Of a DNA stretch of 62,645 nucleotides, positions 1 to 10,170 are shown piece after piece. Position 1 is the stretch's first letter. Each line of letters opens with the position of its first letter. A program made the translations under genes and the position numbers. The notes under the pieces were generated by a model. The model saw only the letters and a list, made by a program, of their open reading frames with translations, was not told the origin of the DNA and searched no databases. The DNA is from Chloroflexota bacterium. Lineage in GTDB: Bacteria > Chloroflexota > UBA11872. Where the stretch lies: positions 1 to 62,645 of the forward strand of contig JAJEGF010000026.1 in assembly GCA_022820025.1 (NCBI GenBank). Reading direction: 5' to 3'.

Positions 1-480
1 CACCGCCCCATACCGCCTCCGGTTGAGTTAGACTCTATCCGCCGGAGACGCTGTTCTGTCTACTTCTCCCTTGAGGGAGAAGGTAGGGATGAGGGTGGCT
101 GCCGACCCTATTCCCCACGCCCAACAGCAGCAACCCACGACCCCAACCGACTCTTCATTCCTTCTTCGAGTATTTCCAAAGTCACCACGTAATCCGAAAC
201 GGAATCGACTGCCGCGGCCCCCGCGGCCGCACCGCCCCAAACCGGCTCCCGTGCATCGAATTTCCAACCGCCGGAGACGCCGCTCTTTCTCCTTCTCCCT
301 TGAGGGAGAAGGTTGGGATGAGGGTGGCTGCCGACCCTATTCCCCACGCCCAACAGCAGCAACCCACGACCCCAACCGACTCTTTTTCCTTCTTCGAGTA
401 TTTCCAAAGTCACCACGTAATCCGAAACGGAATCGACTGCCTCGGCCCGCGCGGCCGCACCGCCCCAAACCGGTCGTACA
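1..480. repeat. Tandem ~228-bp direct repeat, two full copies plus a partial one
   Basis: Two nearly identical blocks (roughly 62-240 and 291-470) repeat with a period of 228-229 bp, and positions 1-60 are the diverged tail of a third copy. Each unit contains an inverted motif around CTCCCTTGAGGGAG, the string GATGAGGGTGGCTGCC, and the segment that codes the last ~18 residues of the terminase on the minus strand. The copy next to the terminase is the one being translated. A shorter relic of the unit recurs near 6321. The palindromic core resembles dispersed intergenic repeat families. No gene is supported in 1-409. Confidence 0.85.
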
Positions 481-1720
481 GCCAGTAACACAGCGCCTTG
501 ATCGCGTGATTGTCCGCGTCGATCGGCTGTTCCGAGACCGGGTGATGCTCCCGCGGCTCGTGATAGCGGTGATTCGCGAACTCCCGGATCAGCGCCTGGC
601 ACCGCGAATTCACCGTAATCCGCGGTTCCCCGGTCCCCGGATTCCGCAGGAACGTCCGCAGCCGCTCCATCCCGTCCTGCAGCAGCACCCGGTGCGAGCG
701 CAGCCGGATCCGCGCCTGCGCCAGCCACACCTCGATCTGGCTCGGCATCGCGTGATGCTGCCGCCCGGCGATGTCGATCACCCCGCTCCGCACGTGCGGC
801 CACCACGACCGTCGCTGGCACGCCTCGATCACCTGCGACGTCATCGCGTACTGCATATACACCTCGTCCAGCACAAACACGTCCGGGCCCCGCTGCGCCA
901 CCGCCAGCACCGCGTACGCCCCTGCGTACCCCGGATCCACCGCGATCTCGATGTTGTCGAAACTCTCGTACGCGTCCGTGATCGTCCGCACGTGCGCCGC
1001 CGGCTCGAACTCCCGGAACACCAGCGACACCGGCGGACATGGCACCCCGCCGAACCGTTCCTGGAACAGGTCGCTCGGATACGTCGTCTCCAGCCGCCGG
1101 ATCTCCGGGTCCGCGCGACCGCCGGGGAACAGCGTCCGGTTCGACCACGACGGAACCGAAAACGACGCCGCCTGCTCCGGGTTGTCCGTCTGCCACGCCC
1201 GGAACCGCTCCGCGTACCAGCCTCGGGACCCCTCGAACGTCCCGCTCAGCCACAGCCAGCCCCGCCGTTCGGCAAGTCGGCCGCTCAGCCGCAGGAACGA
1301 CTCGTACGACAGTTGCGCCGCCTCGCACCCCAGGATCCCGTCCGGCGCCTGCCCCGCCAGCCGCATCGCCCGCTGCGCCGTGCGGGTGGCAATCACCGTC
1401 CCGTTGCGCAGCAGCATTCGGTTCGACTGCCCGGTCGGAGTGGCTAGCGACTCGATCGCGTCCAGCGCCTCCAGCGCTTCGATCAGGTACGCGAACTCCG
1501 GCCGGCATAAGTCGTAATCCGGCCCCACCAGCCAGTACAGCTGCCCTTCCAGGAACCGCCCCGCCAGCTCCATCGCCGCGCTGCGGCTCTTCCCGGCCCG
1601 TTCGCCCCCGGCAATTAGCCGGATGCGCGCCTCCGAGTCGTGCGCTGCGAGTTGTTCGGCATAGGGCCGGTACCCCACCCGCGCCCACAGATGGTCACGA
1701 ACCTCTCGCGGCAACTGCAC
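410..1720 (-). CDS. Phage terminase large subunit
   Basis: This is a 436-residue terminase large subunit, the ATPase-nuclease that packages phage DNA into capsids. A Walker A-like GGERAGKS lies at about residues 38-45 and a RuvC-like nuclease core follows: D262 in IAVDPGYAG, D316 in GVIDIAG, and D401/D403 in the C-terminal DADNHAIKAL motif. The start is the GTG at 1720, chosen because GGAGG sits 6 nt upstream and because residues further upstream match another frame. It overlaps the preceding small gene by about 26 nt. The final ~18 residues are encoded inside the 228-bp repeat, so the original C-terminus may have been replaced. No portal, capsid or tail genes follow, so this is probably a prophage or gene-transfer relic rather than an active phage. 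Confidence 0.85.
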   Translation of the reverse strand: MQLPREVRDHLWARVGYRPYAEQLAAHDSEARIRLIAGGERAGKSRSAAMELAGRFLEGQLYWLVGPDYDLCRPEFAYLIEALEALDAIESLATPTGQSNRMLLRNGTVIATRTAQRAMRLAGQAPDGILGCEAAQLSYESFLRLSGRLAERRGWLWLSGTFEGSRGWYAERFRAWQTDNPEQAASFSVPSWSNRTLFPGGRADPEIRRLETTYPSDLFQERFGGVPCPPVSLVFREFEPAAHVRTITDAYESFDNIEIAVDPGYAGAYAVLAVAQRGPDVFVLDEVYMQYAMTSQVIEACQRRSWWPHVRSGVIDIAGRQHHAMPSQIEVWLAQARIRLRSHRVLLQDGMERLRTFLRNPGTGEPRITVNSRCQALIREFANHRYHEPREHHPVSEQPIDADNHAIKALCYWLYDRFGAVRPRGPRQSIPFRITW

Positions 1721-1934
1721 GCAAGTCCTCCAACAGTCCCGCGAACGCCTGTCCGCTCCCCGCGCGCGGCGGTTCCCCAAACGCGTATCTGAACGCCAGT
1801 TCCACCGCCCAGCGCTCCCCCGCCAACGCCTTCGCCACCACCAGGTCCGACAACTCGTCGGCCTTCCCCAGCACCGCCGACCGAAACCGCTGCTCCGCGC
1901 TCGTCGGCCGCTTCCGCCCACCTCGCGTGCTCAC
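1695..1934 (-). CDS. Small protein upstream of terminase; possible small terminase subunit
   Basis: A 79-residue basic protein directly upstream of, and overlapping, the large terminase gene. Position and size suggest a small terminase or DNA-recognition subunit. The sequence (KADELSDLVVAKALAGERWA, then AFRYAFGEPP) resembles the DUF5681-like small proteins that precede terminases, but I cannot confirm the family. Start: GTG at 1934 with AAGGGG about 7 nt upstream; an in-frame TTG at 1940 is the alternative but lies too close to that Shine-Dalgarno. Read from this strand, a palindromic AGTGTACACT about 70 bp upstream may belong to its promoter region. Confidence 0.55.
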   Translation of the reverse strand: MSTRGGRKRPTSAEQRFRSAVLGKADELSDLVVAKALAGERWAVELAFRYAFGEPPRAGSGQAFAGLLEDLRAVAARGS

Positions 1935-2339: not shown

Positions 2340-3353
2340 CTATCCCGGTTTGTTGTCGGATGAACCAGCGTGTAGTGAATTTGCGAGCTCAGCGAGCGGC
2401 TTGTCAGGTTCGTCGACGAGACACCAGTACCAGTACGCGCTGAAGCCGACATCAGGAAACGGGACGGAATGCTTGTCGCGGAGGAGCACGCTGAGATTGG
2501 TCAGTGAGTACGCCCTTCCATTCCAGTTCACATTGCGACGTGCGCTCGGCTCTGATCCAAAGTGTGCGTGCCACTTCGAGTCGTCGATGTCGAATTCATC
2601 AGAGTCCGAAAAGTAGGGAGAGAAGAGCTTTATCTCTTCTCCACCCTTGATCCGCCCGTGATTGAACAGAACGTTTGAAGTAGGCGGTCGGCGCTGTCGA
2701 GTGACAGACTCGACCTCTTCCGCCCTTCTTCGGACTTGCACGAGGTAGTCGTCGGCTTCGGCAAGTGGTATCAGCTGGCTGGCGTCAACAAACAACTTGT
2801 GGTCTGAGTGATAGAGGATTAGTCGAACGCAGCGGATGTCCAAGCCAGAGTCGTTCAGCCACAGGACGCTGGTTGCCAGTTCCGTAGGAAACTCAGGGGC
2901 AACGAGGACGATTCGTGGCTTCGCGGTTTGAATGTCGTCGCGCTGTATTTCCTTTTCATTCAGGAATTCGTCCAACCTGTTAGCCGCGTCACCGTCCAAT
3001 CCCTGATCTTCTATGAACGCCTGATGCGCCTCGGTCAGCTGCTCGAACGTGATGTTGGCGACCATCGCCGCGTATCTCAGCGCTTGGAGGTCCATATGTC
3101 CCGGATCCTCGTTGCGCTTGAGTTCGACTACGGTCAGTGTTCCGTCGCTATCGATCGCAAGCAGATCAATCCTTCGTGAACTTTCCGACCAGTTCCCGAA
3201 CTCCTCGTCCACGATGAACATGTCACTGCCGAGCGCGCCTGGCTGATTGATGATGAGCTGCTGTAGATCCCGACGCTCTTGCAGGCCCTGTGCCTGGAAG
3301 GTCGTTGTCGGAACGGCCTTCAACTCCTTGTCATCGATTCGGTAAAGGCTCAT
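2340..3353 (-). CDS. NucS/DUF91-type endonuclease-like protein
   Basis: A 337-residue protein with a PD-(D/E)XK-like nuclease signature of the NucS/DUF91 group: RRIDLLAIDSDG followed by LTVVELKR, giving D63, E77 and K79 as candidate catalytic residues. Such proteins cut DNA or serve as nuclease modules in repair or defence. The C-terminal part (about 240-337) is unassigned and aromatic-rich, possibly a recognition domain. The ATG at 3353 is the first start consistent with a compact protein; sequence upstream of it does not look coding. No strong Shine-Dalgarno is visible. Its position beside the DUF5131/TcmP pair and phage DNA suggests a defence-island role, which is inference. The nuclease fold call is fairly firm; the target is unknown. 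Confidence 0.7.
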   Translation of the reverse strand: MSLYRIDDKELKAVPTTTFQAQGLQERRDLQQLIINQPGALGSDMFIVDEEFGNWSESSRRIDLLAIDSDGTLTVVELKRNEDPGHMDLQALRYAAMVANITFEQLTEAHQAFIEDQGLDGDAANRLDEFLNEKEIQRDDIQTAKPRIVLVAPEFPTELATSVLWLNDSGLDIRCVRLILYHSDHKLFVDASQLIPLAEADDYLVQVRRRAEEVESVTRQRRPPTSNVLFNHGRIKGGEEIKLFSPYFSDSDEFDIDDSKWHAHFGSEPSARRNVNWNGRAYSLTNLSVLLRDKHSVPFPDVGFSAYWYWCLVDEPDKPLAELANSLHAGSSDNKPG

Positions 3354-3909
3354 GTGATCAATGTCGCGTTTAGGGGCCCGCCCGATAAGTACAGGTCCAC
3401 TCACGAGGTGGCCATATGAAACCAAGGATGGCCAGAGTACTCGGTGATCCGAGACGCTCGCACCTTTGCTGTCGTTGAGCCCTGATTCGCGGTTAGCCGG
3501 TGCGCACGAGGCGGAGCATGGTGTCGAACCATAAAGCCGCCTATCGACTGACATCGTCGTATCCCAACCTGTCCCCAAGGAAGCTGTCCCACCCACTCCC
3601 GTCCTTGCCTGCATGACCCGCACCGCCGAACACACCTTCAACGCTCAACTCGCCCGTCCGCTCGGCGGCAAGCATCCGTGCTGCAGGTAGCGCGTCGACG
3701 TCAACCAGGCCGTCCTGCCCGGCCGCATGGCTGGAGCGACCTTCGATTTCTACGTCTTCGTCGACTTCACCGAAAACGCCGTTCCCCTCGCCTGCCGGCT
3801 GCAAAATGCTCGAAGAGCTTGAGCGCCTGCAGTTACGCAGGCCTTGCCAGCTTGACAAGGGCAATTACAATTGATTCGTTCGGTTTCCGTTCGTGCAAGG
3901 TGCTGGTCC
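3354..3909. other. Intergenic stretch with a possible decayed reading frame
   Basis: No intact gene is visible. On the plus strand from about 3613 a short frame begins MTRTAEHTFNAQLARPLGGK, then hits a stop, and a later frame reads FDFYVFVDFTENAVPL. This could be the broken N-terminus of a phage or restriction-associated protein, but the evidence is thin. A copy of GTGTCGAACCAT, shared with the repeat cluster near 2309, lies near 3514. Confidence 0.3.
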
Positions 3910-4680
3910 ATGCCGTCGACGATTGAATGGACGGACGAGACGTGGAACCCGGTTACGGGCTGCACGCGCGTGTCGCCCGGCTGCGATCACTGCTACATGT
4001 TCGCCATGTACCCGCGCCTGACGGCCATGGGCGTGCGCGGGTATGAGTTGGACCCACAGGAAGTGCAACTGCTGCCTGAACGGCTGGACGCCCCGCTCCG
4101 CTGGACAACGCCACGCCGGGTCTTCGTCAACAGCATGTCAGATGTGTTCCATCCGCTCGTGCCATATGAATTTGTCACCGAGATGTTCGATGTCATGTGC
4201 GCGGCGGCACGGCGCGGACACATATTTCAGGTCTTGACGAAGCGGCCGGGTCGGGCCCTTGGGTGGTGGGACCGCAACCAGGCCCGCTATGGCGGGACAT
4301 GGCCCGCCGGGGTGTGGATCGGCACGTCGGTGGAAAACCAGAAGTACGCGCCCAGGGTCAGCGTGCTTGCGCGGTTGCCGGCCGCTGTGCGCTTCGTCTC
4401 CGCCGAGCCGTTGCTCGGTCCCGTTGACCTTCGGCGATGGCTTAGTCGTGGGGACGTTCAATGGGTTATCGCCGGGGGCGAAAGCGGGAGAGCCGCACGG
4501 CCCATGGACCTGGCCTGGGCAAGGGACTTACGCGATCAGTCACTCGAGACCGGTGTAGCGTTTTTCCTCAAGCAGCTCGGGGGACGGCGCGGCAAACGAT
4601 CGGGAGACGAAGCAATGCTTGATGGGCGCCACTGGCGTGAGTACCCCAAGCACAAGAAAGAACCCGTCCGTGCCCCCTAG
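3910..4680 (+). CDS. DUF5131 / phage Gp37-Gp68 family 'three-Cys' protein
   Basis: A 256-residue DUF5131 (Gp37/Gp68) protein. It opens with the family signature IEWTDETWNPVTGC and then SPGCDHCY, placing C18, C25 and C28 as the conserved cysteines, a likely metal or Fe-S site. Other family blocks are RVFVNSMSDVFHP, FQVLTKRP, WIGTSVENQ and FVSAEPLLGPVDL. The biochemical function is not established; the fold resembles radical-SAM-type barrels. The start is the ATG just before PSTIEW; upstream residues do not fit the family. Its 3' end overlaps the downstream TcmP gene, the classic pairing for this family, so the two are co-translated. Base composition drops in GC from here into the partner gene, suggesting transfer. 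Confidence 0.9.
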   Translation: MPSTIEWTDETWNPVTGCTRVSPGCDHCYMFAMYPRLTAMGVRGYELDPQEVQLLPERLDAPLRWTTPRRVFVNSMSDVFHPLVPYEFVTEMFDVMCAAARRGHIFQVLTKRPGRALGWWDRNQARYGGTWPAGVWIGTSVENQKYAPRVSVLARLPAAVRFVSAEPLLGPVDLRRWLSRGDVQWVIAGGESGRAARPMDLAWARDLRDQSLETGVAFFLKQLGGRRGKRSGDEAMLDGRHWREYPKHKKEPVRAP

Positions 4681-5758
4681 TACCGCCACTTGGGACCTTG
4701 AGCCGCATACCACCGGGAAACACTTGGTCCTTGGACGCTATATGCAGGCATGGCTGCCGATCATGACCAGGTGGAACGGTCGAGTGCTCTTCATCGACGC
4801 CTTCGCAGGACCGGGCGAGTACTCAGGCGGCGAGCCGGGTTCACCCGTCATTGCGCTGCGAGCGTTGATCGATCATCGTGCCAAGAACCAGATGCGAAGT
4901 GAAATTAACTACCTGTTCATAGAAAAGGACGGTGATCGCTGCGAACGCCTGACACAGGTGCTCAATAGTTTAAGTGGCCAGCTACCGCCCAACTGCAACT
5001 ATAAAGTCATCAACTCAACCTTTGACGAGACGCTCACAGATGTTCTCGACAATATCGACCACCAAAAGGCGCGCCTAGCTCCAGCATTTGTCATGATCGA
5101 TCCATTCGGTGTCTCCGGCACCCCGATGAGTGTCGTAGGACGAATCCTAGAGAACCCTAAGTCAGAAGTTTACATCTCCTTCATGTACAGAGAGATAAAC
5201 AGATTCAAGAGGCATCCCAATTTTGAGAATCACTTAGATGAGCTCTTCGGCTGCTCAGAGTGGCGGCAAGGTATAGATATGCCTGACGGAAATGAGCGTA
5301 AAGTCTTCTTCTACAATTTGTACAGGGACCAACTCAAAGTGAACGGAGCACTGTATGTGGTCCGTTTTGAGCTCTACGCAGGTGAGCAACTGGTTTATGC
5401 GATTTTCTTTGGCACTAAGAGCCTTGACGGGTGCGACAAGATGAAGCAGGCCATTTGGAAGGCAGCTCCCTTTGGAGACTTCAGATTCCGAGGTGGTCGG
5501 CTGGGTCAGCACACTCTTGGCGAAGACTTTGTAGACTTTCGGTTACTTGAGGAGGCACTTAAGCGAGAGTTTCGAGAAAAAGGCTGGCAGAATATAGAAG
5601 CTGTTGAGAACTTCGTAAAGTCCGACGCCACGGACTTTTATTCCGGTCACCTCAAGCGAAAGACACTGACCCCAATGCTGGGCAACGGCAAGATTGAGGT
5701 AGAGCGCCCTCCAGGTCGACGTGGATTCGTCCCTGGAACCCGAATCCTCTTCCGGTGA
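4670..5758 (+). CDS. tcmP: Three-Cys-motif partner protein TcmP
   Basis: A 362-residue TcmP protein, named for its constant adjacency to the three-Cys protein encoded just upstream. Recognition rests on WDLEPHTTGKH, the SAM-methyltransferase-like glycine motif VLFIDAFAGPGEYSGG (about 39-54), FIEKDGDRC and MIDPFGVSG (about 142-150, a DPF-type catalytic-looking motif). It is therefore probably a class I methyltransferase-like enzyme, but no substrate is known. The GTG at 4670 overlaps the upstream stop by 11 nt; an in-frame GTG at 4637 is an alternative. The coding sequence is markedly AT-richer than the window average (for example TTTGAGAATCACTTAGATG near 5221), a sign of horizontal acquisition. 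Confidence 0.88.
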   Translation: MPPSTATWDLEPHTTGKHLVLGRYMQAWLPIMTRWNGRVLFIDAFAGPGEYSGGEPGSPVIALRALIDHRAKNQMRSEINYLFIEKDGDRCERLTQVLNSLSGQLPPNCNYKVINSTFDETLTDVLDNIDHQKARLAPAFVMIDPFGVSGTPMSVVGRILENPKSEVYISFMYREINRFKRHPNFENHLDELFGCSEWRQGIDMPDGNERKVFFYNLYRDQLKVNGALYVVRFELYAGEQLVYAIFFGTKSLDGCDKMKQAIWKAAPFGDFRFRGGRLGQHTLGEDFVDFRLLEEALKREFREKGWQNIEAVENFVKSDATDFYSGHLKRKTLTPMLGNGKIEVERPPGRRGFVPGTRILFR

Positions 5759-5776
5759 ACGGACGTACGTACCTTC

Positions 5777-6235
5777 TCATACCGCGACAGGCAGGACCCT
5801 TCGAACTGATAGACAACGTTGAGTGCGGAAGCCACTATTATGTTGGCCTGCAATAGCTCGACGCGCTGGCCGGGATAACGGCGCAAAGTGACCACGGTAG
5901 CTGCCCTTGCTCGGCGGGGTGCAGGAGGCCCTGGCCAGTCCGACAGCGGAGACCGCTATCGACTGCTCGAATTGGGCTCGCACACTTCGCGTATCTTGAC
6001 GATTCTCGGTCGCTGGAATCAGCGTCCGGTTCCGCGACCTATCAAGCCAGCAAAGCTGCGACAAAGCCTCCGCCGTTCCAATCACATTCAGCACCACGAC
6101 CAGCAACAACCCAACGATCCACACTCTGCGATCAGCAAGGTCAGCCTTCGTGCCGTAGTGCTTCAGCGTCCAATCCAGTTCCTCCCGCAGGCCCTAGCTG
6201 GTCAAAGGCGGCTTCTGGACCGGAACGGTCGTCAT
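5777..6235 (-). pseudogene. Decayed small membrane-protein gene
   Basis: Reading from the ATG at 6235, the frame runs MTTVPVQKPPLTS, meets TAG at 6194-6196, then continues GLREELDWTLKHYGTKADL and a hydrophobic helix WIVGLLLVVVLNVIGTAE. Beyond that the residues no longer look protein-like. The pattern, a short charged N-terminus followed by one transmembrane helix, fits a small membrane or holin-like protein inactivated by a stop codon. The family is not identified. It may belong with the phage relics to the left. Confidence 0.4.
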
Positions 6236-6320
6236 CTTCTCTCCCCTCTCGTATCGCCTTCATCGCGCCCGCTGAACGACTCGTGTGCCGACCGTACGAT
6301 TCCATCGACTGACAAGACGC

Positions 6321-6357
6321 ACGCGACGCCGCTCTTTCTCCGTCGCCCTTGAGAGAC
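6321..6357. repeat. Truncated copy of the 228-bp repeat
   Basis: GACGCCGCTCTTTCTCC followed by CGCCCTTGAGAG matches the segment at 274-305 of the left tandem repeat (GACGCCGCTCTTTCTCC, then TTCTCCCTTGAGGGAG) with few differences, and then diverges. It shows that the repeat is dispersed rather than confined to the terminase region. Confidence 0.6.
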
Positions 6358-6879
6358 CTTTGCAAAACGCCCCACGTTTTCGAATGTGCAGCAACGTCTT
6401 AATCCTTTGCATGTTCCAGATGCCTTGGATTGACCAAGGTCACAGTGAGCGGGCCGGGACGGACCGGACACATGCTGGACAGGTGTTTCGAGACATGGTG
6501 GACACCTGCGCCGGCTCCCGCGGATCTAGCGCGCCCGGGTCGTCGGTCTGGAACCGCATGGCCCGCCAGCCGCGCAGGGCCTTGGTCAGCCGCGGCTGAC
6601 GGCCCGGAAGGACACCCGGCCGCCGGCCTGGACCTTGCGGCCCTGCCTCGCGGTCCTGTACGGCGGCGCGAGGAGGGGCGACAGTTCGCTTCGGCCTGCG
6701 ACTGGCCGGTGCGACGAGGAGCCGGATCGGTCCGCCCCCGCCGCCCATCGGTCATTCGATAGACTGCCGCTCAGATCGTCTCGGGGGGATCTCGAATGGC
6801 CGTTGGCCGTGGGCCGCGCAGATGTCAGCACTTGCTAATTTCGCGAAAAAACGCGTGAAATCTACCGGATAAAGAGCGC
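6358..6879. other. Non-coding stretch, possible insertion-sequence end
   Basis: No gene is supported. Two near-identical 14-mers, ATGCTGGACAGGTG (6472) and ATGGTGGACACCTG (6495), sit 23 bp apart around TTTCGAGAC. Read on the minus strand this resembles the TGTCCACCATGTCTCGA-type sequences that flank many IS481-family transposases, so it may be the remnant end of such an element; no transposase remains. The rest is GC-rich and shows no codon-like structure. The ATP-grasp gene begins at 6880. Confidence 0.3.
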
Positions 6880-8313
6880 ATGGATTTCAACGACTATGAA
6901 CTGGACGGACGCATCTATGACGAGATGTTCCATGCGGATGGCAACGCCCGATCCCATTACCAGGGAGTCCACACGGCCTTAACCGGGACGTCCGCGGCTG
7001 ACCTGGCCGACATCCAGGATCAGGTCACCGGCTCGTTCTCCAGCGAAGGCATCTCCTTCAAGGTCTACGGCGACGACGAAGGCGACGAGCGCATCATCCC
7101 CGTCGACTGCCTGCCGCGCGTGCTCTCGGCCAGCGAGTGGCGCGAACTCGAGACCGGCCTCACCCAGCGCCTCAAGGCCCTCAACCTCTTCCTGGCCGAT
7201 GTCTACGGCCCGGCCCGCATCGTGGAGGACGGCGTCATTCCGGTCGACGTCGTGCGCGGCTGTCCCCAGTACCGGATCGAAATGCGCGGCTTCAAGGCGC
7301 CGCACGGCGTCTGGGTCGCGATCTGCGGAACCGACCTCGTCCGAACAAATGAGGGCTTCAAGGTCCTCGAAGACAACTTGCGCGTGCCCTCGGGCGTCGC
7401 CTACATGCTCGCCAACCGCAAAGCCGTCAAGGCCAGCTTCCGCCGTCTGTACCGCTCCTCGCGGGTACAGGAAATCGAGCATTACGGGCGCGTCCTCCGC
7501 ACGACGCTTGAGGAACTGTCGCCCGCTGGAACATCCGACCCGACCATCGCGTTGCTAACCCCCGGCGTCTACAACTCGGCCTTCTACGAGCACATGTTCC
7601 TGGCCGGGCAGATCGGCGCGGAGCTTGTCGAGGGGCGCGATCTCCTGGTTGACGATGGCTTCGTCTACATGCGCACGACCGCCGGCTTGCGGCGGGTCGA
7701 TGTGGTGTACCGGCGTATCGACGACGACTTTCTCGACCCCGTCGTGTTTCGCGAGGATTCCCTGCTGGGCGTCCCCGGCATCATGCACGCCTGCAAGCAG
7801 GGCAACGTCACGCTGGCCAATGCTCCGGGAACCGGAGTCGCCGACGACAAGAGCGTCTACGCCTACGTTCCCGACATGATTCGCTACTACCTGGCGGAAG
7901 AACCGATCATCGCGAACGTCGAGACCTATCTGTGCCGTAATCCCGAAGGACTCGAATACACGCTCGACAATCTGGCAAACCTCGTGGTCAAGCGCGTCGG
8001 CGAGTCCGGCGGCTACGGCATGCTGATCGGCCCGCATGCCACGCCGGCCGAGCGCGCGGAGTACGCCGAGCAAGTGCGGGCTAATCCCGCCGACTTCATC
8101 TCTCAACCGGTGCTCGACCTGTCGCGGGCGCCCTGCCTCATCGATGGCCGCATCGAACCTCGCCATGTCGACCTGCGCCCCTTTGTGCTGCATGGCCGCC
8201 AGACCCGCATCGTGCCCGGCGCGTTCTGTCGAGTGGCCTTGCGGCGCGGCAGCCTGGTGGTCAACTCCAGTCAGGGTGGCGGCGGCAATGACCTCTGGGT
8301 GCTGGAGAACTAA
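6880..8313 (+). CDS. Circularly permuted ATP-grasp protein
   Basis: A 477-residue circularly permuted type 2 ATP-grasp protein (DUF404/DUF407). Family blocks include FKVYGDDEGDERIIPVDCLPR, VLEDNLRVPSGVAYML, PGVYNSAFYEHMFLA, VYRRIDDDFLDP and VKRVGESGGYGMLIGP. ATP-grasp enzymes make amide or peptide bonds through acyl phosphates; members of this subgroup are predicted to build short peptides or peptide tags, but the product is unknown. It heads a three-gene operon with an alpha-E protein and a transglutaminase-like protein, spaced by only a few bases. The ATG at 6880 gives the expected N-terminus. No clear Shine-Dalgarno precedes it. Confidence 0.92.
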   Translation: MDFNDYELDGRIYDEMFHADGNARSHYQGVHTALTGTSAADLADIQDQVTGSFSSEGISFKVYGDDEGDERIIPVDCLPRVLSASEWRELETGLTQRLKALNLFLADVYGPARIVEDGVIPVDVVRGCPQYRIEMRGFKAPHGVWVAICGTDLVRTNEGFKVLEDNLRVPSGVAYMLANRKAVKASFRRLYRSSRVQEIEHYGRVLRTTLEELSPAGTSDPTIALLTPGVYNSAFYEHMFLAGQIGAELVEGRDLLVDDGFVYMRTTAGLRRVDVVYRRIDDDFLDPVVFREDSLLGVPGIMHACKQGNVTLANAPGTGVADDKSVYAYVPDMIRYYLAEEPIIANVETYLCRNPEGLEYTLDNLANLVVKRVGESGGYGMLIGPHATPAERAEYAEQVRANPADFISQPVLDLSRAPCLIDGRIEPRHVDLRPFVLHGRQTRIVPGAFCRVALRRGSLVVNSSQGGGGNDLWVLEN

Positions 8314-8318
8314 GCCGC

Positions 8319-9287
8319 ATGCTGTCGCGCAGCGCCGAGGGTCTCTACTGGATGGGCCGCTACTTGGAGCGCGCCCAGCATCTCAGCCGGCTGCTGCGCA
8401 TGCAGGCGGAGGCCCTGGTCGATCGGCCGGTCAACGAGATTCACTTCGGCTGGCTGCGCGTCTACGGCAGCCTGCACCGTCAACCGCCGGTCGGCAGCCT
8501 TGAGCTTCTTGCCCAGGACGACTACACCCTGGCGGATTCCTACACGCTGGCGGATGACCTCACGTTTGAACCCACCAACCCGGCCTCGGTGTGGAGCGGA
8601 ATCTCGAGTGGACGCGAAAACGCGCGGCATGTACGTCACTGTCTCAGCGCCGAGATGTGGACCTGCCTGAATCGAACCTATCTGCGTGTTCAGGGCATGA
8701 CGATCCAGGACATCTGGGCGTCGTCGCCCGAACGCTTCTATGCGGAGACGGTGGCTGACATCGACACCTTCGCCGGCGTGGCCGCGGCCACGATGTACCG
8801 CGACGAAGGCTGGAGGTTCCTGAATCTCGGCCGCGCGATCGAGCGGGTGCAACTCTCATCCGCGCTGCTGCATGCGCAGATCGTGGCTGCCGAACGCACC
8901 CGCGATGTCTCCGAAGCCGCCTGGACCGGGCTCCTTCGCCTCTATCACGCGCTCGAGGCCTACCATCGAACCTACGGTCTCACGGTCGTGCCGCGTCAGG
9001 CCCTGGACCTGCTGGCCACCGATGCGCGATTGCCCGACTCCCTCTGCCGGTCGCTGGACATGCTCTCCGCCGAACTCGCCGACACCGCCGCCAGCCCCAA
9101 CGATCAGGCCGCCGGCGCCGCGCAACGCCTCATGGGTCGCATGAGCGCCCTGGTCAACTACGCCTGGCTGGATCAGGATGACCCGAAAGCCTTGCTGCAG
9201 CAGCTGAACGAGCACGGACGAGATCTCCACGACCTGCTGACGGATTCCTTCTTCAACTACCCGGTTCACGACGTTCCCGCTCGCTGA
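8319..9287 (+). CDS. Alpha-E domain protein (DUF403)
   Basis: A 322-residue alpha-E (DUF403) protein, predicted to be all helical. The characteristic N-terminus MLSRSAEGLYWMGRYLERA and the block YRDEGWRFLNLGRAIERVQ (about 158-176) are both present. It starts 5 nt after the ATP-grasp stop, so translation is coupled. In many genomes this protein is always linked to the circularly permuted ATP-grasp and a transglutaminase, and is thought to be their structural or substrate-handling partner. No catalytic residues are known. Confidence 0.92.
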   Translation: MLSRSAEGLYWMGRYLERAQHLSRLLRMQAEALVDRPVNEIHFGWLRVYGSLHRQPPVGSLELLAQDDYTLADSYTLADDLTFEPTNPASVWSGISSGRENARHVRHCLSAEMWTCLNRTYLRVQGMTIQDIWASSPERFYAETVADIDTFAGVAAATMYRDEGWRFLNLGRAIERVQLSSALLHAQIVAAERTRDVSEAAWTGLLRLYHALEAYHRTYGLTVVPRQALDLLATDARLPDSLCRSLDMLSAELADTAASPNDQAAGAAQRLMGRMSALVNYAWLDQDDPKALLQQLNEHGRDLHDLLTDSFFNYPVHDVPAR

Positions 9288-9291
9288 CGCT

Positions 9292-10170
9292 ATGGCGGGT
9301 CCGGTCCGCTACGAGATCGAGCACGAATCGCGCTACGCCTACACCGCGCCCGCCCGCTACTGCGTCATGCGTCTCTGCCTCAAGCCGCGCGGCGACGGCG
9401 GTCAACGGCTTGTGCGGTTCGCGGTTTCCACCGACCCCGCATCCACCCTCAACGTTGAGACCGACGCCTTCGGCAACACCCGGCACCTGCTCAATCTCCA
9501 TCGCGAGCACGCCGCCCTTGCCATCTCGGCCTCGTGCGCCATCGAGATTCGTCCGTCGCCGCTCCTGCCCCATTCGCTGGGCCCGGATGCCTGGACGGCC
9601 CTCCACGCCGAGCGTGATGCCTTCGCCGACTGGGACTTCACCCGCCCCAGCGCCCTCACAACGCCGTCGCCCGCGCTCTCCGCATTCACGCGCCGGTGCG
9701 GCATCCGTGTTCGAGACGATCCACTCCAGAGCCTGCGCCGCCTGTCGGACTCGCTCCATGACAACTTCACCTACAGCCCCGGCAGCACCTCGGTCATCTC
9801 TCCCATCGACCACATCCTCGAAACCGGCCACGGCGTCTGCCAGGACTACGCCCACGTCATGATCGCCATCGCCCGATCCTGGGGAATCCCCACCCGCTAC
9901 GTGTCCGGCTACCTGCACGTCACCGGCGCGCAAGGCGAGCAGGCGCCGTCAACCCTCACCCATGCCTGGGCCGAATGCCGCCTGCCCGGCCTCGGCTGGA
10001 TCGGCTTCGACCCCACCAACCGCACCCTCGCCGACCATCGCCACGTCCGCCTCGCCGTCGGCCGCGACTACCAGGACGTCTCCCCCACCCGTGGCGTCCT
10101 CCGCGGCGGCGGCCAAAGCCGCCTCCACGTCAACGTCCGCATCCACCCACTCACACCCCCACCCGCCTGA
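9292..10170 (+). CDS. Transglutaminase-like cysteine protease
   Basis: A 292-residue transglutaminase-family protein with the bacterial N-terminal beta domain (EIEHESRYAYTAPA) and a papain-like core. The catalytic triad is visible as C183 in GHGVCQDYAH, H224 in LTHAW and D240 in GFDPTN. Such enzymes hydrolyse or exchange amide bonds. As third gene of the operon, 4 nt after the alpha-E gene, it probably processes or cleaves the peptide product of the ATP-grasp enzyme; that role is inferred from conserved linkage. The protein ends in a proline- and histidine-rich tail. Confidence 0.92.
   Translation: MAGPVRYEIEHESRYAYTAPARYCVMRLCLKPRGDGGQRLVRFAVSTDPASTLNVETDAFGNTRHLLNLHREHAALAISASCAIEIRPSPLLPHSLGPDAWTALHAERDAFADWDFTRPSALTTPSPALSAFTRRCGIRVRDDPLQSLRRLSDSLHDNFTYSPGSTSVISPIDHILETGHGVCQDYAHVMIAIARSWGIPTRYVSGYLHVTGAQGEQAPSTLTHAWAECRLPGLGWIGFDPTNRTLADHRHVRLAVGRDYQDVSPTRGVLRGGGQSRLHVNVRIHPLTPPPA

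Follow-up and report, generated by a model that had tools for sequence, protein, structure and literature searches.

A TcmP/DUF5131 gene pair in a Chloroflexota genome: a candidate two-enzyme defence module with an unlinked nuclease beside it

PDC-M30 and PDC-M41, as listed in PADLOC, are names of an embedding-derived defence candidate, and PDC-S11 is a candidate separate from them. In a panel of 100 P. aeruginosa strains, 32 were predicted to carry PDC-M30 and 10 to carry PDC-S11, and 68.8% and 90% of these, respectively, resisted phage; both figures are correlations only (PMC10855318). In the core set, the majority of these candidates still await validation (PMC12988326). TcmP is named without a function in the passages covered of two further papers (PMC12429752, PMC12445080); in a regulated-gene table of the second, the entry for SMa2243 (TcmP) comes immediately below that for hna (SMa2245), in list order only. 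Here we describe a locus in which matches to both candidates stand side by side, at positions 2340-5758 of a 62,645-nucleotide stretch (the window) that makes up the entire contig JAJEGF010000026.1 (positions 1 to 62,645) in the draft genome of a Chloroflexota bacterium (assembly GCA_022820025.1). Its adjacent DUF5131 and TcmP genes encode proteins that match models of PDC-M30 and PDC-M41, and the nuclease encoded next to them matches PDC-S11:

2340-3353, minus strand (ATG at 3353): NucS-C-domain-like PD-(D/E)XK nuclease, 337 amino acids (aa), PADLOC PDC-S11; outside the pair
3910-4680, plus strand (ATG at 3910): DUF5131 protein (PF07505), 256 aa, with a CX6CX2C motif; putative radical S-adenosylmethionine (SAM)-type partner
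4670-5758, plus strand (GTG at 4670): TcmP (TIGR04474; PDC-M30A), 362 aa, with a predicted RlmJ-like methyltransferase fold and a C-terminal part

The coordinates and strands given in a preliminary description of the locus were all reproduced from the reading frames, as were the 11 nt common to the DUF5131 and TcmP frames (4670-4680) and the 556-bp divergent spacer between the nuclease and DUF5131 (3354-3909). Ratios of nonsynonymous to synonymous substitution (dN/dS, NG86 method) are 0.07-0.12 for DUF5131 and TcmP, compared with the TcmP loci of close relatives (L097, L098 and L099), and 0.14 for the nuclease, compared with L035; dS in these comparisons is 0.8-2.2, the higher values being near saturation. 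These ratios indicate that all three genes are under purifying selection and are not chance open frames. The closest relatives of the window TcmP are named Dehalococcoidia/Chloroflexi.

A radical-SAM-type neighbour is a near-constant feature of TcmP. We compared 80 TcmP loci from named genomes, these being the top 80 among 376 confirmed matches, a set that favours long-type TcmP and includes near-copies; up to 10 kb of flank was taken per side, on contigs of uneven length, many of them shorter. A radical-SAM-type protein lies within 1.5 kb of TcmP in 79 of these loci, and the exception is at a contig end. The partner is DUF5131 in 65 loci, a spore photoproduct lyase (SPL)-type protein in 11 and a CX3CX3C radical-SAM protein in three; all nine substitute partners that were scanned score above the Pfam threshold of SPL or Radical_SAM. 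Viral loci follow the same pattern: 18 of 19 have a partner (DUF5131 14, SPL-type 3, CX3CX3C 1) and the remaining one is at a contig end. The orientation of DUF5131 relative to TcmP varies (38 upstream, 9 downstream, 17 convergent and 1 divergent; n = 65) while adjacency is constant. Because the named loci are the best matches and include near-copies, a sample of 301 genomes of the phylum was added as a check, with TcmP and S11 counted at E ≤ 0.001. Here 52 of 60 above-cut-off TcmP rows have a partner (41 DUF5131, 3 SPL within 2.5 kb and 8 other radical-SAM-type proteins), five are at contig ends and three are lone.

The reverse does not hold. DUF5131 is present in 74 of the 301 genomes, and 30 of 71 DUF5131 rows in this sample have no nearby TcmP row (8 of the 30 are in one genome, and contig ends are included). 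Among viral DUF5131 loci, 58 of 80 are without TcmP, 10 of them near the end of the examined stretch, and tblastn finds DUF5131 in 160 phage records vs 8 for TcmP. TcmP is almost always partnered and DUF5131 is often solo; the dependence is therefore one-way. Pairwise distances of TcmP and DUF5131 are correlated (r 0.49 over 63 pairs, with 0 of 2000 permutations as high), a correlation for which shared ancestry alone could also be sufficient.

Several unusual arrangements were seen during this survey. Genome G180 has eight DUF5131 matches above cut-off on eight contigs, none with a TcmP row nearby. In L164 (an archaeal contig) and in L178, L179 and L181 (viral, with shared neighbours), TcmP is beside two different SPL-type radical-SAM genes. 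A Rhodococcus plasmid (L336) carries two adjacent TcmP genes and one DUF5131 at 3415-6817.

TcmP had been called methyltransferase-like on the strength of an AGPG motif, which is found as D-A-F-A-G-P-G at residues 43-49, and its predicted structure bears this out. The protein matches TIGR04474 (2.7e-54), and a sequence search of the PDB returned no useful E-value (RlmJ at 0.42-0.48). Its predicted model (predicted local distance difference test score [pLDDT] 91.5) has the Rossmann fold of class I methyltransferases: the top PDB fold match is E. coli RlmJ (6qdx; E 5.8e-7, TM 0.41/0.52), CmoA, Trm1, Trm5, YhhF and other methyltransferases are within the top 50, and methyltransferases make up the majority of the 50 listed out of 151 fold matches at E ≤ 1e-3. 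Residues D43, G47, G49 and D144-P-F-G are invariant in 49 long-type TcmP sequences, and D43, G47, G49 and D144 are invariant also in a wider set of 26; these correspond to a predicted SAM-binding glycine motif and motif IV acid. TcmP thus resembles the RlmJ/Trm enzymes and is a candidate SAM-dependent nucleic-acid methyltransferase. The E. coli control genome has a match to the TcmP model below cut-off.

The window DUF5131 protein matches PF07505 (9.5e-82). Its three cysteines, at residues 18, 25 and 28 counted from the ATG at 3910 as previously described, are spaced CX6CX2C and are invariant across 35 DUF5131 sequences. The predicted model (pLDDT 90.4) has weak Foldseek matches to lipoyl synthase (probability 1.00), SPL (0.97), the nitrogenase-cofactor enzyme entry 7bi7 and HydE. 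At the sequence level, TIGR04471 matches at 2.7e-5, far below its cut-off, and a PDB search gave no useful E-value. Profile alignment by hhalign against the CX3CX3C partner class gave E 1.6e-4 (probability 51%), with two unrelated controls at E 0.096 and 0.13, and three partners of that class match PF07505 below its cut-off (0.0011-0.0071). We propose that DUF5131 is a radical-SAM-type protein related to the spore photoproduct lyase group, in which case radical chemistry would be its presumed activity.

Phages carry the pair at a characteristic position. TcmP was found by tblastn in 8 phage records, all from Gordonia phages, and a divergent copy in three more, giving 11 records and 7 distinct phages. 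In all five Gordonia records that were opened (ThankyouJordi, Easley, Angelique, Bosnia and PantheRoc), the pair, checked for family identity, is in the repressor-integrase interval: TcmP comes immediately after the immunity repressor (gap of -4 to +3 nt) and next to a convergent DUF5131, and the integrase is further on. No annotated nuclease is directly beside the pair in these five records. A morphogenesis role in prophages, one of the two outcomes that the preliminary description would have taken as refutation, was considered and rejected, given this placement in a lysogeny cassette in five of five records. The variable repressor-integrase region is known for prophage defence genes in the Gordonia host group, and for BaxterFox the paper singles out genes 31 and 32 rather than the TcmP/DUF5131 pair (PMC5559632).

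Solo DUF5131 genes occur in other surroundings. In five phage records opened, their neighbours include RecT, resolvase and sliding-clamp genes as well as replication and methylase genes, and across the 58 solo viral loci no cluster besides DUF5131 itself recurs in more than five. On a quick DUF5131 tree, the solo/paired label changes 17 times vs 43.6 for shuffled labels, with 0 of 500 shuffles as low.

Close relatives of the window locus have the pair in a larger cassette. In L097 and L098, a type IIG/DrmMI-like methylase gene (1.3e-117 and 5.7e-113) lies on one side of the pair and an HKD+SNF2 helicase gene (3.9e-47 and 1.2e-46) on the other. The methylase-type gene precedes DUF5131 in L098 and L099, and the helicase follows TcmP in L097 and L098, separated from it in L098 by one short open reading frame (ORF). 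In the window, the pair has the following surroundings:

410-1921, minus strand: terminase-large-subunit-like ORF, 503 aa, an apparent phage relic outside the pair (PHROG phrog_2, 9.7e-20)
3751-3804, plus strand: probable short relic of the C-terminus of a type IIG/DrmMI-like gene (tblastn with an L099 ORF)
5794-5895, plus strand: relic of the N-terminus of an HKD+SNF2 helicase, internally deleted and containing a stop (tblastn with L098 and L097 ORFs)
6750-9810, plus strand: conserved chromosomal flank with an ATP-grasp-like gene (named by eye) and neighbours (same-genus identity)

The helicase relic is matched at E 7e-5 by the L098 ORF and at 0.016 by the L097 ORF. The match at 3751-3804 has 11 of 18 residues identical and E 0.48 on its own; we regard this methylase relic as probable because it falls inside a continuous blastn alignment of 3755-5700 to L098 and L099 (75% identity). 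To the right, the flank is 81-95% identical in seven same-genus genomes, in alignments that begin between 6610 and 6851, and no match was found left of 6754/6851 in three longer same-genus stretches (L330, L331 and L332). Judged from these alignments, a variable island lies left of the conserved flank at about 6750. Together, the flanking relics and the intact pair mark the pair, by sequence comparison, as the intact core of a decayed defence island, descended from a cassette with the helicase and probably the methylase. The phage and repeat relics mentioned in the preliminary description were also recovered, as the terminase-like ORF at 410-1921 and repeat copies at approximately 49-135 and 278-364; a further copy of this dispersed repeat is at approximately 6328-6376, and copies are found in same-genus genomes (L285, L287 and L329).

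A wider PADLOC scan of neighbourhoods comprised 70 of 119 ORFs from 20 TcmP regions vs 94 of 146 control ORFs from 20 other regions of the same contigs (ORFs at least 200 aa long whose midpoints fall at 2-10 kb within 12-kb regions, TcmP and DUF5131 excluded). Among the families listed, the TcmP-region neighbours include two members each for type III, type IIG and type I models, and one each for RmrA, type I, helicase and other models. Short proteins that appear TIR-like by eye are encoded near the pair at L100:11177-12130 and L097:4318-4713, with no PADLOC match, and L100 also has a CRISPR-like repeat array near the pair, judged from translation alone.

The nuclease does not share in this conservation of context. 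The description of it as NucS-like holds for a nuclease domain and not for NucS itself: it matches the NCBIfam NucS model NF003270 at 1.7e-6 with 27.3 bits vs a cut-off of 216, over profile positions 129-196 of 250, so that the C-terminal catalytic part alone matches and the cut-off of the full-length model is not reached. The nuclease profile matches PDB entry 2vld (1.5e-5), and no Pfam match was found at 1e-3. PDC-S11 matches residues 1-229 (1.3e-89), and D63, E77, K79, Q90 and Y94 are invariant across 15 aligned S11-family nucleases. In the phylum sample, S11 is present in 34 of 301 genomes, TcmP in 67 and both in 12, and S11 is near TcmP in only one of these 12, the window's own genome; in ten of the other 11 they are on separate contigs of draft assemblies, and in the last (G023) they are approximately 957 kb apart. 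None of the 80 named TcmP loci has S11 nearby, nor does any of the 20 12-kb TcmP regions contain it (ORFs of 200 aa or more); TcmP or DUF5131 was found near none of 35 viral S11 loci; and of 30 S11 genome loci with flanks of approximately 1.5 kb, the window's alone has TcmP. The nearest S11 relative (69% identity) is flanked on either side by oxidoreductase-like ORFs (judged by eye), in a genome with no TcmP match and with a solo DUF5131 on a different contig. The nuclease is therefore rejected as a third component, and is an independent neighbour and bystander to the pair; such a lack of linkage was what the preliminary description had set as its refutation. The suggestion that the locus as a whole may be an uncharacterised defence locus stands, as a candidacy, for the DUF5131/TcmP pair, which matches PDC-M30/M41 and occurs in several defence-like contexts, and fails for the nuclease as a member. 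The window's genome has three more S11-like matches, on contigs C71, C54 and C50, away from the pair.

On balance, we consider it probable that the pair is a base-modifying, two-enzyme defence module that acts without a neighbouring nuclease and is not a restriction-modification system. This reading draws on the protein families, the TcmP fold, the near-obligate pairing, the one-way dependence, the placement in lysogeny cassettes and the descent from a cassette; from these we infer radical-SAM chemistry for DUF5131, a shared substrate, an order of reactions and an antiviral outcome. In the proposed mechanism, TcmP as a methyltransferase would depend on a radical-SAM-type protein, here DUF5131, and both would act on the same base of one nucleic acid. 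The first-ranked sub-mechanism is sequential hypermodification by the two enzymes, and the hypermodified base would interfere directly with phage DNA or RNA, with no need for a nuclease. Trm5 and then TYW1 act in sequence on tRNA, which is a precedent for such an order; we put it forward tentatively.

A number of observations weigh against the proposed module. The fold matches of TcmP have modest TM-scores and approximately 12% identity, and motif IV is not universal: two relatives in the wider set have DQ for DP, and the divergent TcmP of phage PantheRoc (L345:4735-5721) has DQQG where others have DPFG. Three lone TcmP-like genes, divergent or truncated, occur in the phylum sample. DUF5131 of the window does not have the canonical CX3CX2C radical-SAM motif, its model has no Foldseek match at E ≤ 1e-3 (rank 1 is a proline dehydrogenase barrel), and its profile aligns weakly with a larger alignment of SPL-type partners (E 0.011, probability 3.8%). 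Of 53 solo phage DUF5131 rows, 32 are in two clades without paired rows, and solo phage DUF5131 may have a different job from paired DUF5131. The flanking cassette genes in the window have decayed, and the pair may be a survivor and not a working system. The neighbourhood comparison rests on 25 of 38 test families and 25 of 79 control families listed, and kinase models lead the controls. Finally, no mechanism or test of PDC-M30/M41, and no function of TcmP or DUF5131, was found in the literature searched, a search outside of which bioRxiv and most subscription journals lay.

The alternative that survives best is a write-and-erase, toxin-antitoxin-like immunity in which TcmP sets a toxic mark on a base and an SPL-like partner reverses it, with DarTG as the model of such logic; on this view, lytic phages would use solo DUF5131 for counter-defence. 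We rank it second to sequential hypermodification and think it unlikely. It would explain why TcmP is almost never alone while its partner is often solo (58 of 80 viral loci; 160 vs 8 phage records), why the substitute partners are related to a repair lyase, SPL, and why, in the five records opened, solo DUF5131 has genes of replication and recombination around it. This asymmetry, however, fits equally well with TcmP using its partner's product as substrate; the one-way dependence may thus mean that TcmP needs that product or that it is toxic without the partner. Convergent arrangement is unusual for toxin-antitoxin pairs, yet 17 of the 65 DUF5131 pairs are convergent. The two clades that hold 32 of the 53 solo rows and lack paired ones also count against erasure, as does the fact that we know of no radical-SAM eraser of methylated bases.

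A housekeeping or mobile-element modification of RNA (e.g. tRNA or rRNA) without a defence role would suit the best fold match of TcmP, an rRNA methyltransferase, and the tRNA enzymes among its other matches. We consider this distinctly improbable: TcmP is patchily distributed (67 of 301 phylum genomes), and the settings of the pair include plasmids, phage lysogeny cassettes and a restriction-type cassette. A restriction-like three-gene system, in which self DNA would carry a mark set by TcmP and DUF5131 and DNA lacking it would be cut by the S11 nuclease, is suggested by the adjacency of the genes in the window and by the family-invariant catalytic residues of the nuclease, and is extremely improbable, being already refuted as a general rule by the linkage counts (1/12 genomes; 0/80, 0/35 and 0/20 loci), by the nearest S11 relative standing alone and by the five Gordonia records with no annotated nuclease beside the pair. 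Since S11 and TcmP are not linked elsewhere, the "modification enzyme plus nuclease" logic of the preliminary description is unsupported; S11 is a separate candidate family, and the kept linkage of modification gene and nuclease expected of restriction-modification was not found.

A broader form of the two-enzyme module would be a new kind of immunity. TcmP would be its constant half, working only with an SPL-like radical-SAM enzyme (from three interchangeable subfamilies) to make or reverse a hypermodified base. In temperate phages the pair would serve as a defence expressed from the prophage, and in lytic replication modules the radical-SAM half would occur by itself, for modification of their own or as counter-defence. 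We regard this extension as rather doubtful. We know of no precedent in immunity for radical-SAM chemistry paired with a nucleic-acid methyltransferase, which would be new if true. DUF5131 (74 of 301 genomes) and TcmP (67 of 301) are common genes, and the pairing rule and the position next to the repressor make their function testable in cultured Gordonia phages.

Compared with described proteins, TcmP is closest in fold to E. coli RlmJ, the 23S rRNA A2030-N6 methyltransferase, and differs from it in having DPFG at motif IV (DPPY in RlmJ), an extra C-terminal part and a radical-SAM-type neighbour. SPL-type proteins replace DUF5131 beside TcmP in 11 of the 80 named loci, and DUF5131 resembles SPL weakly in fold; unlike SPL, it has CX6CX2C and no Pfam SPL match. 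The cassettes of L097 and L098, with type IIG/DrmMI-like and HKD+SNF2 (C3a139, DrmD-like) genes around the pair, recall DISARM/type IIG cassettes, whereas the window has the relics at 3751-3804 and 5794-5895 in place of an intact DrmMI-type methylase and DrmD-like helicase. In Gordonia phages, the position of the pair is like that of the CarolAnn prophage defence genes gp43 and gp44, which are repressor-adjacent, co-transcribed with the immunity repressor and described as lambda rexAB-like in organisation (PMC6426606); for the pair, the likeness is one of gene position alone. The pair itself is already a listed candidate, PDC-M30/M41, to which the present analysis adds an RlmJ-like predicted fold, the radical-SAM pairing rule, the position in Gordonia lysogeny cassettes and the cassette relics.

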